Shown here: piece after piece, positions 43,296-47,716 of the stretch
Position numbering within the stretch: position 1 is the first letter of the stretch
Layout of the letters: the number at the start of each line of letters is the position of its first letter
Origin: Clostridia bacterium
GTDB taxonomy: Bacteria > Bacillota > Clostridia > Oscillospirales > Butyricicoccaceae
Direction of reading: 5' to 3'
NCBI GenBank assembly: GCA_017455565.1
Contig: JAFSZV010000057.1
Coordinates: 1-64,000, forward strand
DNA length: 64,000 nucleotides
The notes under the pieces: model-generated
What the model saw: only the letters and a program-made list of their open reading frames with translations
Databases searched by the model: none
What the model was told of the DNA's origin: nothing
Position numbers and translations under genes: made by a program

Positions 43296-44105
43296 TTAGA
43301 ACACATAGGAAACGCAGGCGAGAACGTCCAGATAATCGTCGGTTTCCAGCCGGATGGTGCGATCACCTGCTAGTTTGAAACCCGGGAACCAGGAATAGCG
43401 CACCGCGTCCCGGTGCTCCTTATACGTCAGCTCCAGCACAAAGCGCCGGGGCAGCTTGCACAGCGCGTCCGACAGATCCTGCCGCAGCGCCTCTTCGGCG
43501 GCGGCGCGGATGCGATCGCAGGCCACCTTGGGGTGCAGGCAGCGGATCATGCCGCCCAAACCGTCCTTGACGGCGACGGTTTTCAGTTTGGGATGGATAT
43601 TCTGGGCAAGGGAGTCCTCGGTGAGCATTTTGTCGCCGGTGAGCAGCACCGAGGGCACGCCCTCCAGCGCGCAGGCCCAGCTAAACAGCAGGAATTCAGT
43701 GCAGATCATGCCGTTGAGGGTCACCTGCGTGGTTCTGGTGGAGTAGGTGTGGGAAAGGGGATTGCCCCGGCGTCCGGCGGCCGAGTGGTAGCCGATGAAC
43801 ATGGCGGCGTCGAAGCTTTTGTCCACGCCGTAAGCCATGGCATAGGGATGGCCGTTCCAGCTTCGAATGAGCTGTACGCATTCGGGAAGCTGGACGGGGT
43901 CGAGATTGACGGCGGGGCCATGGGCGTCCTTGATGAGGATTTCGGTGGCGCCGGCGGCGATGGCACCCTCGCAGGCGGCCTTGACCTCGGCGGTCATCTG
44001 CTGAATATGCGGCTTTGCCGTGGCCAGATCGTTGACGGGAAGGGTCTGGTTCCAGGCGTTGGCGAGGGTAGTGCCCTCAATATCCGCGCTGATAAAGACT
44101 TTCAC
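43296..44105 (-). CDS. M55-family D-aminopeptidase (DppA-like), copy A
   Basis: 269 residues from a GTG start with AAGGGGGC upstream. ADIEG (Asp8, Glu10), DAHG (His62), GYHSAAG (His107), LSHTYST (His119) and ICTEFLLFSW (Glu137) supply the DppA metal and catalytic residues. Zinc enzyme that releases D-amino acids such as D-Ala from small peptides, in peptidoglycan turnover. It follows copy B after 12 bases. Confidence 0.92.
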   Translation of the reverse strand: MKVFISADIEGTTLANAWNQTLPVNDLATAKPHIQQMTAEVKAACEGAIAAGATEILIKDAHGPAVNLDPVQLPECVQLIRSWNGHPYAMAYGVDKSFDAAMFIGYHSAAGRRGNPLSHTYSTRTTQVTLNGMICTEFLLFSWACALEGVPSVLLTGDKMLTEDSLAQNIHPKLKTVAVKDGLGGMIRCLHPKVACDRIRAAAEEALRQDLSDALCKLPRRFVLELTYKEHRDAVRYSWFPGFKLAGDRTIRLETDDYLDVLACVSYVF

Positions 44106-44117
44106 AAAAGCGCCCCC

Positions 44118-44915
44118 TTACAGACAGAACTGTACGGCTCGCAGAACGTCCATGAAATCGCCGGTCTCCATGCGGATGGTGTGATCGTCCAGCAGCGCAA
44201 AGCCGGGATAGAACGAGCGGCGCACCGCGTCGTGATGTTCTTTATAAGAAATCTGGAATACAAAATGCTCGGGCAGCGTGATTCCCGCGCCCGACAGATC
44301 CTGCGACAGCGCCTTTTCCGCCATTTCCCGGATCATGCGGCAGGCTAGATTGGGATTGATGGACTTGGTGCAGCCGCCCAGACCGTCCTTCACGGCCACA
44401 GTGTGCAGGACGGGATGCAGGCCGCGGCTGTCGTCAATGAGGGTCTTGTCGCCGCACAAAAGCACTGTTGGCACGCCGAAGGCAGCGCAGGCCCAGCTAT
44501 ACAGCAGGAATTCCGAGCAGACCATTCCGTTGAGGGTCACGGAGGTGGTTTTGGTGGAATGGGTGTGGGAAAGGGGATTGCCGATCCGCCCGGCGGCGGC
44601 ATGATAGCCCACGAACATGGCGGCGTCGAAGCTGCCGTCGACGCCGTCCGCCATACCCAGCGGGCTGCCGCTCCAGCCGCGGATGACCTCGACGCATTCG
44701 GGAAGCTGGGAAACGTCCAGATTGACGGCCTCGTCGTGGGCGTCATTCACCAGGATATAGTCGGCTCCGGCAGCCACGGCGCCCTCGCAGGCAGCCTTGA
44801 CCTCGGCGGTCATCTGCCGGGCGGCGGCGGGATACAGATCTTTGCCGCGCTCGGTCTCGTCCCACAGAGTGGTAAAGGTAGTGCCTTCGATGTCGGCGCT
44901 GATGAATACACGCAT
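44118..44915 (-). CDS. M55-family D-aminopeptidase (DppA-like), copy B
   Basis: 265 residues from the ATG at 44915, with AAGGAGG 8 bases upstream. All ligand positions match the DppA family: Asp8, Glu10 (ADIEG), His60 (NDAH), His105 (GYHAAAG), His117 (LSHTHST) and Glu135 (VCSEFLLYSW). Related to the next gene along most of its length but clearly diverged, so this is an old tandem duplication. First of the two-gene operon. Confidence 0.93.
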   Translation of the reverse strand: MRVFISADIEGTTFTTLWDETERGKDLYPAAARQMTAEVKAACEGAVAAGADYILVNDAHDEAVNLDVSQLPECVEVIRGWSGSPLGMADGVDGSFDAAMFVGYHAAAGRIGNPLSHTHSTKTTSVTLNGMVCSEFLLYSWACAAFGVPTVLLCGDKTLIDDSRGLHPVLHTVAVKDGLGGCTKSINPNLACRMIREMAEKALSQDLSGAGITLPEHFVFQISYKEHHDAVRRSFYPGFALLDDHTIRMETGDFMDVLRAVQFCL

Positions 44916-44950
44916 AAACAATTCCTCCTTATTGAATAATTAGCAGCTTG

Positions 44951-45081: not shown

Positions 45082-45810
45082 ATGAGCAAAACCGGGAAAA
45101 CGATCCTGCGCTTTTTTGCCGTGACGGCGGCTTTTATCCTGTTTCGGGAATTGGTGGACAGATTGGGCTGGAAACTCGCCCTTGCGCTTGACAATGGAGT
45201 GCTGGATCCGGACGGCGTGTTTCTGGCTGTGTCCATTCATCATGTTGTGTATGTGCTGTGTACGCTTCCGGTCTGCTTTGCGCTGCATAAGGCGGCGGGG
45301 CTGGAGTTTCCATTAAAGCCCCGGAGAGACGACCGAAGCGCGAGATTTGTGGCGCGGCTTTGTCTCGTCTTTCTGGTATATAACCTGGGCTGGTATCTGA
45401 TTGTGGGAGTGCTGGAACGTGCGATTGTTCCGGTTGATTATGCGCTCACCGCCGTGAATGTGGCGGGAACGCTGGGGTTTCAATTATTTTTGTCAGGCAC
45501 GGGGGAAGAACTGCTGTGTCGTGCGCTGCCCATCACCTGCCTCCGGGCGGCGTGCGGGGAGCAACGCAAGTCTACGGACAGCGTGATCCTCTTGATTACC
45601 GCGCTGTTGTTTGCCGCAGGACATATTCGGGTTTCGGCCCCGCTGTCGACTCAATGGTATAACCTTTTGTATGTTTTTGTTCATGGTATGATTTATGGCA
45701 TGGTCTATTTGCGCGCAAAAAGCGTGATATATCCTATGATCCTGCACGGGGTGAGCAATGTTCTTTCCGTGGGCGGATGTTATCTGTATATGCTATTGTG
45801 CAACCCGTAA
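45082..45810 (+). CDS. CPBP family intramembrane glutamic endopeptidase
   Basis: 242 residues, about seven hydrophobic segments. GEELLCRALP (E-E-x-x-x-R, about 142), AAGHIRVS and ILHGVSNVLS (H-x-x-x-N, about 222) are the CPBP/Abi motifs. These intramembrane proteases process prenylated or peptide substrates and often give bacteriocin self-protection; no bacteriocin genes are near. Codon use is AT-richer than in the surrounding genes. Confidence 0.92.
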   Translation: MSKTGKTILRFFAVTAAFILFRELVDRLGWKLALALDNGVLDPDGVFLAVSIHHVVYVLCTLPVCFALHKAAGLEFPLKPRRDDRSARFVARLCLVFLVYNLGWYLIVGVLERAIVPVDYALTAVNVAGTLGFQLFLSGTGEELLCRALPITCLRAACGEQRKSTDSVILLITALLFAAGHIRVSAPLSTQWYNLLYVFVHGMIYGMVYLRAKSVIYPMILHGVSNVLSVGGCYLYMLLCNP

Positions 45811-45840
45811 AAACAAGCGGGAAATTTATCATGGAAAAAA

Positions 45841-45866
45841 GAGGAGCTTGCCGGCTCCTCTTTTTT
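45841..45866. terminator. bidirectional terminator between the CPBP and terminase genes
   Basis: GAGGAGC/GCTCCTC stem with a 6-base loop, followed by six T and preceded by six A. Confidence 0.87.
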
Positions 45867-45870
45867 GCGG

Positions 45871-47394
45871 TTACAGGTTCAGCGGCAGAGTGAACAGCCG
45901 ATCGCCCTGCTTGCACAAACGGACGGCGCCCTCCAGCGCGTCGGGCCCGTCGTCATAGCGACCCATTGGGAATTGCGAAAGCTGATTCAAAAGCTCCGTC
46001 TGGTCCCGCCGGAACAGCAGATAACCGTTGCGGATGTCTGGCTGCAGCGACTGGACGCGAAGCGTTTTGTCCGAGGCGGCCCGCACCTCGCGGATAGGGA
46101 GATAAATTCCCTGGGCGGCGCTCTCAGTGGCCAGGCGCTCCTTGAGAAACCATTGAAACTGATTGGTCTCGGCGCCAAAGGCGGCAAATCCCCGGCCGTA
46201 TTCCCGCTCCAGCCGCAAAGCGTGTTCCAGAATATCCCGGATGATGACGTCGGGATGCCGCCGCTGCAAATCGGCCTCCAGAACATAGAGCAGGCCAGAG
46301 CGCCGCTCCCGGGCCAGGATCACAATGGCGGAAAAATCGCCGGAGGCCGTTTTGCCCAGACTGGGGTCGCAATAGCCGAAAAACCGAAAATCCCCGGAAA
46401 AATCCACGCCCTCGGGGTCGTAATAGCGGAACCATTCCGCCGGGAACAGACAGCTCTGCGGATCCACGGGGGTGTTTTGCATCTCCTGATAAAAGATTCC
46501 TTCGCCCTCGCTGACCATCATGCACATCAGCTCGTAATAGGGGAGCTTTTTGGGCCACAGCACACGGGTCCCCGCCAGCATCTCCTTGCGGTGGGCGGTA
46601 AAAAAACGCAGGGCGGTCTTGTCCCGCCGGGGATCGGAAAGGTCGGTGTAGAGAGCCTGCCAGCGCCGCCACAGGTCACTTTCGGAAAACCTCTCTATCG
46701 CCTGCAGCCGCAGCGTTTTGTAGGCGGGATTTCGCAGCAGACGGCTCAGAAGGCTGTCGTGATGCAGCACGGTTCCGATGCACACAATGTCGGTATAGCG
46801 GTCGCCCGCCTTGCTCACTGCGCCGAAAAACCACCGCTCCAGTTTTTGCCGCAGGTCGGCGGACAGCACCTCCTGGTCGTTTTCCACGTCGTCCAGCAAA
46901 ATCAGATCAGGGCGGCGGGCGCCGTGCCGTCGGCCCCGCAGCTTTTGCCCCGAGCCCACGGCGTCGATGCGCGCCCCGTTTTCCAGCAGGATGACAGTGC
47001 TTTTCCAAACCCGCCCTTTTTGTGCGCCGAAGTCCCGCAAAATCGCCTCGTTGTCCTCCAGCTCGGTTTTGATTGCGTCGAGAAAGGCGGCGGCCTGGGC
47101 TTCGGTGTCTGAGACCAGCAGGATGTATTTTTTGTAGCCGTAAAGCGCCGCGTGCAGAACGTTTTGCAGGCTCATCAGCGTGGATTTCGCGTGGCCGCGG
47201 GGGGCGGCCACCGCCAGCCGGCAGCCGGGGCTTTCCAGCATGGCGGCCGTCCCGCCGGACAGAGGATCCATTCCTCGCATCACCGTTTTGGCCCACAGAC
47301 GGCAAAGCCGCCGATGAAACGGCGGCGAGGGCAGGGTGAAATAATGGGGCAGATAGGTCCGGCCAAAAAGCAGCGGATCGGCAGCGCAGGCCAT
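45871..47394 (-). CDS. phage-type terminase large subunit, orphan
   Basis: 507 residues if started at the ATG at 47394, one base after the upstream stop (TAAGATG); an in-frame ATG at 47421 would give 516. Neither has a clear Shine-Dalgarno, so coupling decides. Walker A-like APRGHAKSTLM (about 64-74), Walker B LILLDDVEND (about 165) and coupling motif IGTVLHHD show the packaging ATPase. The C-terminal RNase H-like nuclease has GYCDPSLGKTASGDFSA (about 340), FGAETNQFQ and YDDGPDALEGAV with the acidic residues in place. All motifs look intact. No portal, capsid, tail, holin or lysin genes are adjacent. Confidence 0.92.
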   Translation of the reverse strand: MACAADPLLFGRTYLPHYFTLPSPPFHRRLCRLWAKTVMRGMDPLSGGTAAMLESPGCRLAVAAPRGHAKSTLMSLQNVLHAALYGYKKYILLVSDTEAQAAAFLDAIKTELEDNEAILRDFGAQKGRVWKSTVILLENGARIDAVGSGQKLRGRRHGARRPDLILLDDVENDQEVLSADLRQKLERWFFGAVSKAGDRYTDIVCIGTVLHHDSLLSRLLRNPAYKTLRLQAIERFSESDLWRRWQALYTDLSDPRRDKTALRFFTAHRKEMLAGTRVLWPKKLPYYELMCMMVSEGEGIFYQEMQNTPVDPQSCLFPAEWFRYYDPEGVDFSGDFRFFGYCDPSLGKTASGDFSAIVILARERRSGLLYVLEADLQRRHPDVIIRDILEHALRLEREYGRGFAAFGAETNQFQWFLKERLATESAAQGIYLPIREVRAASDKTLRVQSLQPDIRNGYLLFRRDQTELLNQLSQFPMGRYDDGPDALEGAVRLCKQGDRLFTLPLNL

Positions 47395-47395
47395 C

Positions 47396-47644
47396 TTAGC
47401 GCTTGGCGACAAGGATGTCATAGATCTGTGTCAGCTTCTGCTCGATGGAGGTCTGAAACCGGCAGAACTCATCGTAGCGGAGATAGCTTTCCCGAATGCG
47501 GTCGAGGGCCTTTGCCGTCTGTTTTTTTTCGTCCTCCAGATCCTTGCGGAGGGCGTCGTGGCCTGAGATCAGCCGCTTGAAAAAATAGCCGAAAGCCCCT
47601 GTGACCGCCGCCAGCGCGCAGGAGACCCAAACCGTTTGATTCAT
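47396..47644 (-). CDS. small membrane-helix plus coiled-coil protein coupled to the terminase
   Basis: 82 residues from the ATG at 47644, with GGAGTG 8 bases upstream. N-terminal membrane helix (about 5-23), then a charged helix (RKDLEDEKKQTAKALDRIR) and IEQKLTQIYDILV. It ends one base before the terminase start, so the two are translationally linked. No family recognised; phage holin or XhlA-like membrane proteins are the nearest idea, but their domain order differs. Confidence 0.78.
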   Translation of the reverse strand: MNQTVWVSCALAAVTGAFGYFFKRLISGHDALRKDLEDEKKQTAKALDRIRESYLRYDEFCRFQTSIEQKLTQIYDILVAKR

Positions 47645-47716
47645 AAAAATCACTCCTTTGCCGCCTATTGTGGGGCAAAGGAGCGGAAAAGAAAAAGGAA
47701 GCGTGCATTTGACAGA

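Follow-up and report, generated by a model that had tools for sequence, protein, structure and literature searches.

A terminase gene among host genes points to a candidate gene transfer agent with dispersed, co-promoted operons in gut Clostridia

Introduction

What is an intact phage terminase doing among host genes? The question is raised by terL in the window, that is, the whole stretch of 64,000 nucleotides analysed here from a Clostridia bacterium contig (JAFSZV010000057.1). A preliminary description made from these letters called the gene an orphan and read it either as a relic kept intact by chance or as a domesticated packaging motor, as in gene transfer agents (GTAs).

Sets of GTA genes are difficult to recognise, as they look like defective prophages and are not self-packaging. 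GTA-like packaging has been reported in Ruminococcaceae and, with 3 of 25 events (Onthomonas), in Oscillospiraceae; the only convincing gene set came from Faecalibacterium and is FpGTA, called the second Gram-positive GTA-like system (PMC12946183). By text search of the open-licence literature, we found no GTA paper naming Oscillibacter and no other paper on a dispersed clostridial GTA system.

Results

The ORF at 45871-47421 on the minus strand is an uninterrupted gene for a terminase large subunit (TerL). Its product matches phrog_38 (PHROG, E 1.1e-101) and scores above the TIGR01630 cut-off (NCBIfam); a Pfam Terminase_6C match stays below the Pfam cut-off, and comparison with the PDB gave no sequence match. 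The gene is single copy in its own genome (G000, 1.86 Mb). Walker A (APRGHAKST), Walker B (LLDDVEND) and the nuclease acidic motifs, already noticed in the preliminary description, have invariant key residues in 27 aligned TerL sequences, among them L060, in which a contig end cuts off the last two motifs. The protein thus carries both the ATPase and the nuclease motifs of a terminase (phrog_38/TIGR01630).

The start of the gene needs correction. It had been placed one base after a small upstream ORF, at the ATG at 47394, and this codon reads GCG in the congeners G005 and G008. Because it is not conserved, 47421 is the likelier start; the conserved product (MTSLSPSAK...) would then probably have 516 aa and overlap the small ORF.

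The small ORF (47399-47644, minus strand) encodes an 82-residue protein with a transmembrane segment and a coiled coil (phrog_462, E 1e-9). Phage relatives carry this family upstream of TerS-TerL. With tblastn, we found the protein in only three of the nine genus loci (the window, L055 and, as a partial match, L060), as well as in G022, a genome of another genus, and in one of nine Oscillibacter-type loci. The distribution marks it as a presumed phage leftover that most species have lost, and the earlier idea of a dedicated membrane anchor or regulator finds no support in it.

Together these elements form one compact transcription unit: a promoter/operator at 47667-47713 on the minus strand (GTCAAATGCACGCTTCCTTTTTCTTTTCCG followed by a CACAAT box), the small ORF, terL, and an inverted repeat with T/A tracts at 45835-45866, read off the sequence, that is probably the intrinsic terminator of terL. 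A 376-aa upstream gene and a 100-aa divergent gene are conserved neighbours. We do not count them as parts of the system, since the promoter separates the 376-aa gene from the small ORF.

Across the genus, TerL is found in seven of the eight other species (73-98% identity), and the sole congener without it is represented by a genome that is 81% complete. One additional TerL-bearing genome was drawn from the contig collection (L057). The locus itself is conserved: the 376-aa gene, SfsA, a DUF362/ferredoxin gene, DppA-like genes and metG are common neighbours. Two tandem DppA-like (M55) peptidase genes lie at 43296-44921 in the window and are kept near terL in the genus. The dN/dS ratio (omega) of terL, taken over the three closest species, is 0.04-0.08, as low as that of host genes under the same measurement. 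Both checks suggested earlier, orthologues at the locus and dN/dS, speak for a maintained gene.

In Oscillibacter and its relatives, the TerL counterpart (60-65%) is encoded divergently to a cluster of capsid, head-tail connector, sheath, tube and baseplate genes and is followed downstream by a gene for a Mor-family activator. A portal and scaffold pair lies away from terL, in some genomes on the same contig at roughly 17-30 kb. Because the Oscillibacter TerL adjoins the capsid-tail cluster and the Mor gene, we searched the genome of the window for those families. Sheath (phrog_1480), capsid (phrog_422) and portal (phrog_64) occur there in one copy each, on contigs C23, C23 and C81, respectively. 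A second capsid match was seen in G004, in an apparent prophage, while capsid matches in G044 and G050 were set aside: they belong to different clusters of phage type, which lack this system's TerL, portal and sheath.

The capsid/contractile-tail operon spans about 9.6 kb (C23 16322-25939) and runs from the capsid gene through two head-tail adaptors, a tail-terminator-like gene, sheath and tube to a chaperone-like gene, LysM/XkdP-like and XkdQ-like genes, a small gene, baseplate wedge genes, a Mu gp48-like gene and fibre genes. Among solved structures, its sheath is closest to the diffocin sheath CD1363 (PDB 8v3t, E 5.6e-51). A transposase-like fragment (C23 26143-26688) directly follows the operon. 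At the second locus (C81 12759-14456), flanked by an ABC-transporter operon and a transketolase pair, are the genes for a portal of SPP1 type (Pfam E 7e-61) and for a DUF4355 scaffold (E 3e-9). The portal and capsid genes that the earlier check had proposed to look for elsewhere in the genome are thus in place.

The putative lysis locus, a holin (LLH family, E 2e-14) and a C39-like endolysin that scores below the Pfam cut-off, lies on C27 at about 45701-46779. Lysis pairs bearing the promoter motif described below occur in seven genus genomes. Another holin/endolysin pair, on contig C3 of the same genome, belongs to an ordinary prophage (C3 1-12000) with tape-measure-like and baseplate genes; its endolysin is 60% identical to the lysis-locus homologue. 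This pair lacks the shared motif, was rejected as part of the system and served as a negative control.

A likely switch is encoded on the contig of the window itself, immediately beyond the window (C30 64384-65606). The gene for an activator of the Mor family (64384-64650; Pfam score 57.8 bits against a cut-off of 24.9) is 17 kb away from terL; genes for an XRE repressor and an M78 (ImmA/IrrE-like) metallopeptidase run divergently to it. The Mor gene is present in eight of nine genus genomes, and repressor and peptidase align in the same eight. In most species a palindrome, TGTCCG-N6-CGGACA, stands upstream of the Mor gene (for example at about 4660-4700 in L186), possibly the operator of the repressor or of the activator itself.

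Hence the statement that no portal, capsid, tail or lysis gene is close to terL holds inside the window, and the term orphan is wrong at genome scale, because portal, scaffold, capsid, tail and lysis genes are found on C81, C23 and C27 and a phage-type regulator 17 kb away on the same contig.

Each of the terL, portal, capsid-tail and lysis loci has host genes on both sides, so that the genes are dispersed over separate places in the host genome (C23, C81, C27 and the contig of the window). No integrase or replication genes lie beside the particle loci, which do not form the contiguous element with such genes expected of a prophage, nor the single prophage-like late operon of the PBSX type: they are on separate contigs with host flanks. 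In the particle operons, neither TerS nor an ordinary tape-measure gene was found. The minor head protein phrog_115 is absent across the genus except for a match in G003 (contig C162), which resembles a prophage fragment and was not taken as a member.

Phage-type relatives encode, one after the other, phrog_462, TerS, antiterminator, TerL, portal, minor head, scaffold and capsid. The genome of the window therefore holds that module in pieces, minus TerS and the minor head gene. An intermediate arrangement is seen in G022, which keeps the small ORF, TerL and portal together. In G004, capsid-tail and lysis operons lie about 80 kb apart on one contig (C29) and terL and Mor 17 kb apart on another (C15). 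Since each of these contigs carries two far-apart loci, dispersal in G004 is no assembly effect; the genomes are fragmented MAGs, which give distances for only a few pairs of loci, these two among them.

The whole set is retained. Portal, capsid and sheath are found in nine of nine genus species, and TerL, activator and lysis pair in seven to eight. All particle parts are under purifying selection (omega 0.02-0.29, up to nine species), and the only disrupted copy is one baseplate ORF, in G006.

The dispersed operons also share a promoter. Regions upstream of capsid, portal and terL across the genus have TTCcTTGg.cATTTCCGg-N12-TAtaAT in common, 56-114 bp before the start (EM motif log-likelihood 421, compared to 112-146 in 12 shuffled sets). 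Its fullest form, before the portal gene of G001, is by inspection a dyad, GGAAATGTCCAAGGAAGCGCTTCATTGGGAATTTCC, which as a single strand folds with z -3.2. Because the species are related, we added a cross-operon test with a matrix trained on capsid and portal promoter sites only. Chance expectation was below 0.02 in seven of nine terL regions, and 0.13 and 0.18 in the other two; the motif is weak before terL in G002 and G004, and in G002 the best match lies at a different position from the EM site. All seven lysis regions came out below 0.03, L249 with its site at a shifted position, and the scores of three prophage lysis cassettes were at background.

A genome-wide pattern search returned three exact sites, and no more, in G000, in G005 and in G008: before capsid, terL and portal. 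As the pattern was written from such sites, this result speaks for specificity and not for discovery. In addition, GTCMAATGNNNNNTTCC occurs exactly twice in G000, G001, G004, G005 and G007, before terL and before the lysis genes, with zero control matches in these genomes. A match to it on C162 of G003 falls within a coding region and was treated as chance. A related core, GGAAgCGCTTCccAA, is shared by the Oscillibacter upstream regions; it stands out most before capsid, and less so before terL and portal. Based on these data, the dispersed genes appear to be jointly regulated through a promoter common to four operons.

The shared motif also precedes genes that we take to be DUF6291-like in G001 and G007 (L243 4432-5082, L246 5153-5799, L245 353-976). 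With a weak match in G003 and none in G000, they stand behind the motif only in G001 and G007, so we regard them as accessory and not as core members of the regulon.

When 76 TerLs were placed in a maximum-likelihood tree, the genus (9 rows), G022 and 13 rows of Oscillibacter type came together in a single group (100/100, stem 0.9), separate from the TerLs of phages and prophages. Trees built from individual particle genes agree on G001 with G007 and on G000 with G005 and G008; support elsewhere is weak. Given one TerL clade and the split Oscillibacter layout, one domestication event in an Oscillospiraceae ancestor, with dispersal thereafter, would explain the pattern. Transfer between genera after domestication is compatible with it as well.

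Discussion

We propose, with a probability of roughly 0.8, that TerL serves as the packaging motor in a phage-like, domesticated particle, a candidate GTA, whose genes are scattered over at least five chromosomal places and kept there. We file it as a candidate GTA because the genomic traits examined are present or nearly so: phage-derived head, tail and packaging genes (TerL, portal, scaffold, capsid, connectors, sheath, tube and baseplate), and vertical retention under purifying selection (portal, capsid and sheath in 9/9 species, omega 0.02-0.29, a single TerL clade). By its gene content, a prohead with portal and scaffold, a TerL with complete catalytic residues and a lysis cassette amount to a DNA-packaging particle. 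Its tail is contractile by homology to a diffocin-like sheath and, as the operon has no tape measure, probably very short.

The following cycle can be pictured. The XRE repressor would keep the Mor-type activator off until, under some stress, the ImmA-like peptidase removes the repressor and frees the activator. Assuming that activator and operators belong together, Mor would bind to the operators in front of all four operons (terL, portal, capsid and lysis) and turn them on together. The scaffold would support procapsid assembly, TerL would dock on the portal and load the procapsids with cellular DNA, probably without a pac site, short contractile tails would join the filled heads, and holin and endolysin would let the particles out. 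Since TerS was not found, a specific pac site is unlikely, and packaging of random DNA of the cell would be the natural outcome, by analogy with the packaging reported in PMC12946183. The particles may deliver this DNA to recipient cells; in sequence, delivering and killing particles would look alike.

On the fuller version of this proposal we are only a little more confident than even: a true Oscillospiraceae GTA with a contractile tail, four dispersed operons and one Mor-type activator, domesticated before Oscillibacter and this genus split. Less probable, yet to be taken seriously, is a PBSX-like killing particle, with host DNA in its heads and a contractile tail acting as a tailocin against relatives, which delivers no usable DNA. 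The closeness of the sheath to that of diffocin CD1363 (PDB 8v3t), the tail fibre and lysis genes, and the precedent of PBSX, which packages host DNA without delivering it (PMC12946183), fit such a killer. Strong purifying selection on terminase, portal and scaffold, needless for a pure killer, speaks against it, as do a tail without an ordinary tape measure and the finding of no recognised immunity gene near the operons, although none of these points is decisive.

Scattered prophage remains, intact by chance and without joint function, are by comparison very improbable. In favour of this reading, the genomes are MAG assemblies, and TerS, minor head and tape-measure genes are missing; open reading frames with low dN/dS in up to nine species, conserved host flanks and one promoter type before four separate operons strongly contradict it. 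The relic that the preliminary description had allowed for is contradicted too, whereas its domesticated motor gains from the conserved locus, selection, invariant catalytic residues and co-promoted partners. We give least credence to a TerL recruited alone for a cellular nuclease or translocase job, unrelated to the capsid and tail genes. The gene does sit among host genes with no particle gene adjoining; nonetheless, it has its promoter in common with the portal, capsid and lysis operons, GTCMAATGNNNNNTTCC stands in G000 only before terL and lysis, and in Oscillibacter TerL adjoins the capsid-tail cluster and the Mor gene.

Set beside described systems, the candidate GTA resembles several and matches none. 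PBSX is one prophage-like cluster with TerS. Like the system described here, PBSX of Bacillus subtilis is headed, contractile-tailed and domesticated, with the same sheath family (phrog_1480 matches B. subtilis), but here at least four dispersed operons stand under one promoter type. Diffocins, R-type tailocins of C. difficile, are headless, whereas capsid, portal, scaffold and TerL are retained here beside a homologous short tail sheath (PDB 8v3t). FpGTA likewise has domesticated TerL, portal, scaffold and capsid genes, is present almost throughout a gut genus that belongs to the same order, keeps tail fibre and lysis genes at a second locus and has no replication genes (PMC12946183). It differs in being podovirus-like, with a single operon of 10.5 kb for TerS, TerL, portal, scaffold and capsid (PMC12946183); compared by description, the present system has split operons at separate loci, contractile-type tail genes, no TerS found and a linked Mor-type regulator.

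RcGTA of Rhodobacter capsulatus shares phage-derived genes at several loci, vertical inheritance, purifying selection and cellular control (PMC9836097), but it is siphovirus-like, has a main cluster of about 14 kb and is regulated by GafA/CtrA (PMC9638019, PMC3999984), and its gene families are unrelated to those found here. The closest named phage TerL is that of Mushuvirus mushu (phage FP_Mushu), at 50.6% identity; the TerL tree used other phage rows. Mor-family activators belong to Mu-type control, a likeness to Mu-type phages, but FP_Mushu and similar Mu-like phages are complete phages whose TerL falls below the similarity level of the domesticated clade.

A dispersed TerL system fits the GTA-like packaging reported in gut Oscillospiraceae without identified genes (PMC12946183). 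If true, it would supply those missing genes, and gut bacteria would package, and perhaps exchange, their own DNA by such particles. The shared-promoter regulon names the genes concerned, points to a likely master switch and comes with hosts that can be cultured (Oscillibacter); thereby particle-borne DNA exchange in these gut bacteria becomes directly testable. More generally, an orphan terminase can mark the visible tip of a dispersed particle, and a shared operator can be used to find the remaining pieces.

Tandem LHETKSEF-type repeats lengthen the Oscillibacter gene that lies between those for the tail tube and the LysM protein. Such repeat-extended, chaperone-like genes lie at 3032-4015 in L063, 1904-3127 in L066, 1672-2835 in L069 and 2105-3382 in L090, and we speculate that the HETKSEF-type repeats might serve as a ruler or short tape measure.

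Finally, three contigs filed as viral in IMG/VR (L017, L018 and L019) and a human faecal 'Bacteriophage sp.' in GenBank (MT838800.1) carry TerLs that belong to the domesticated clade or are 64% identical to it. These contigs may be pieces of bacterial chromosome, perhaps recovered by way of particles that package host DNA.
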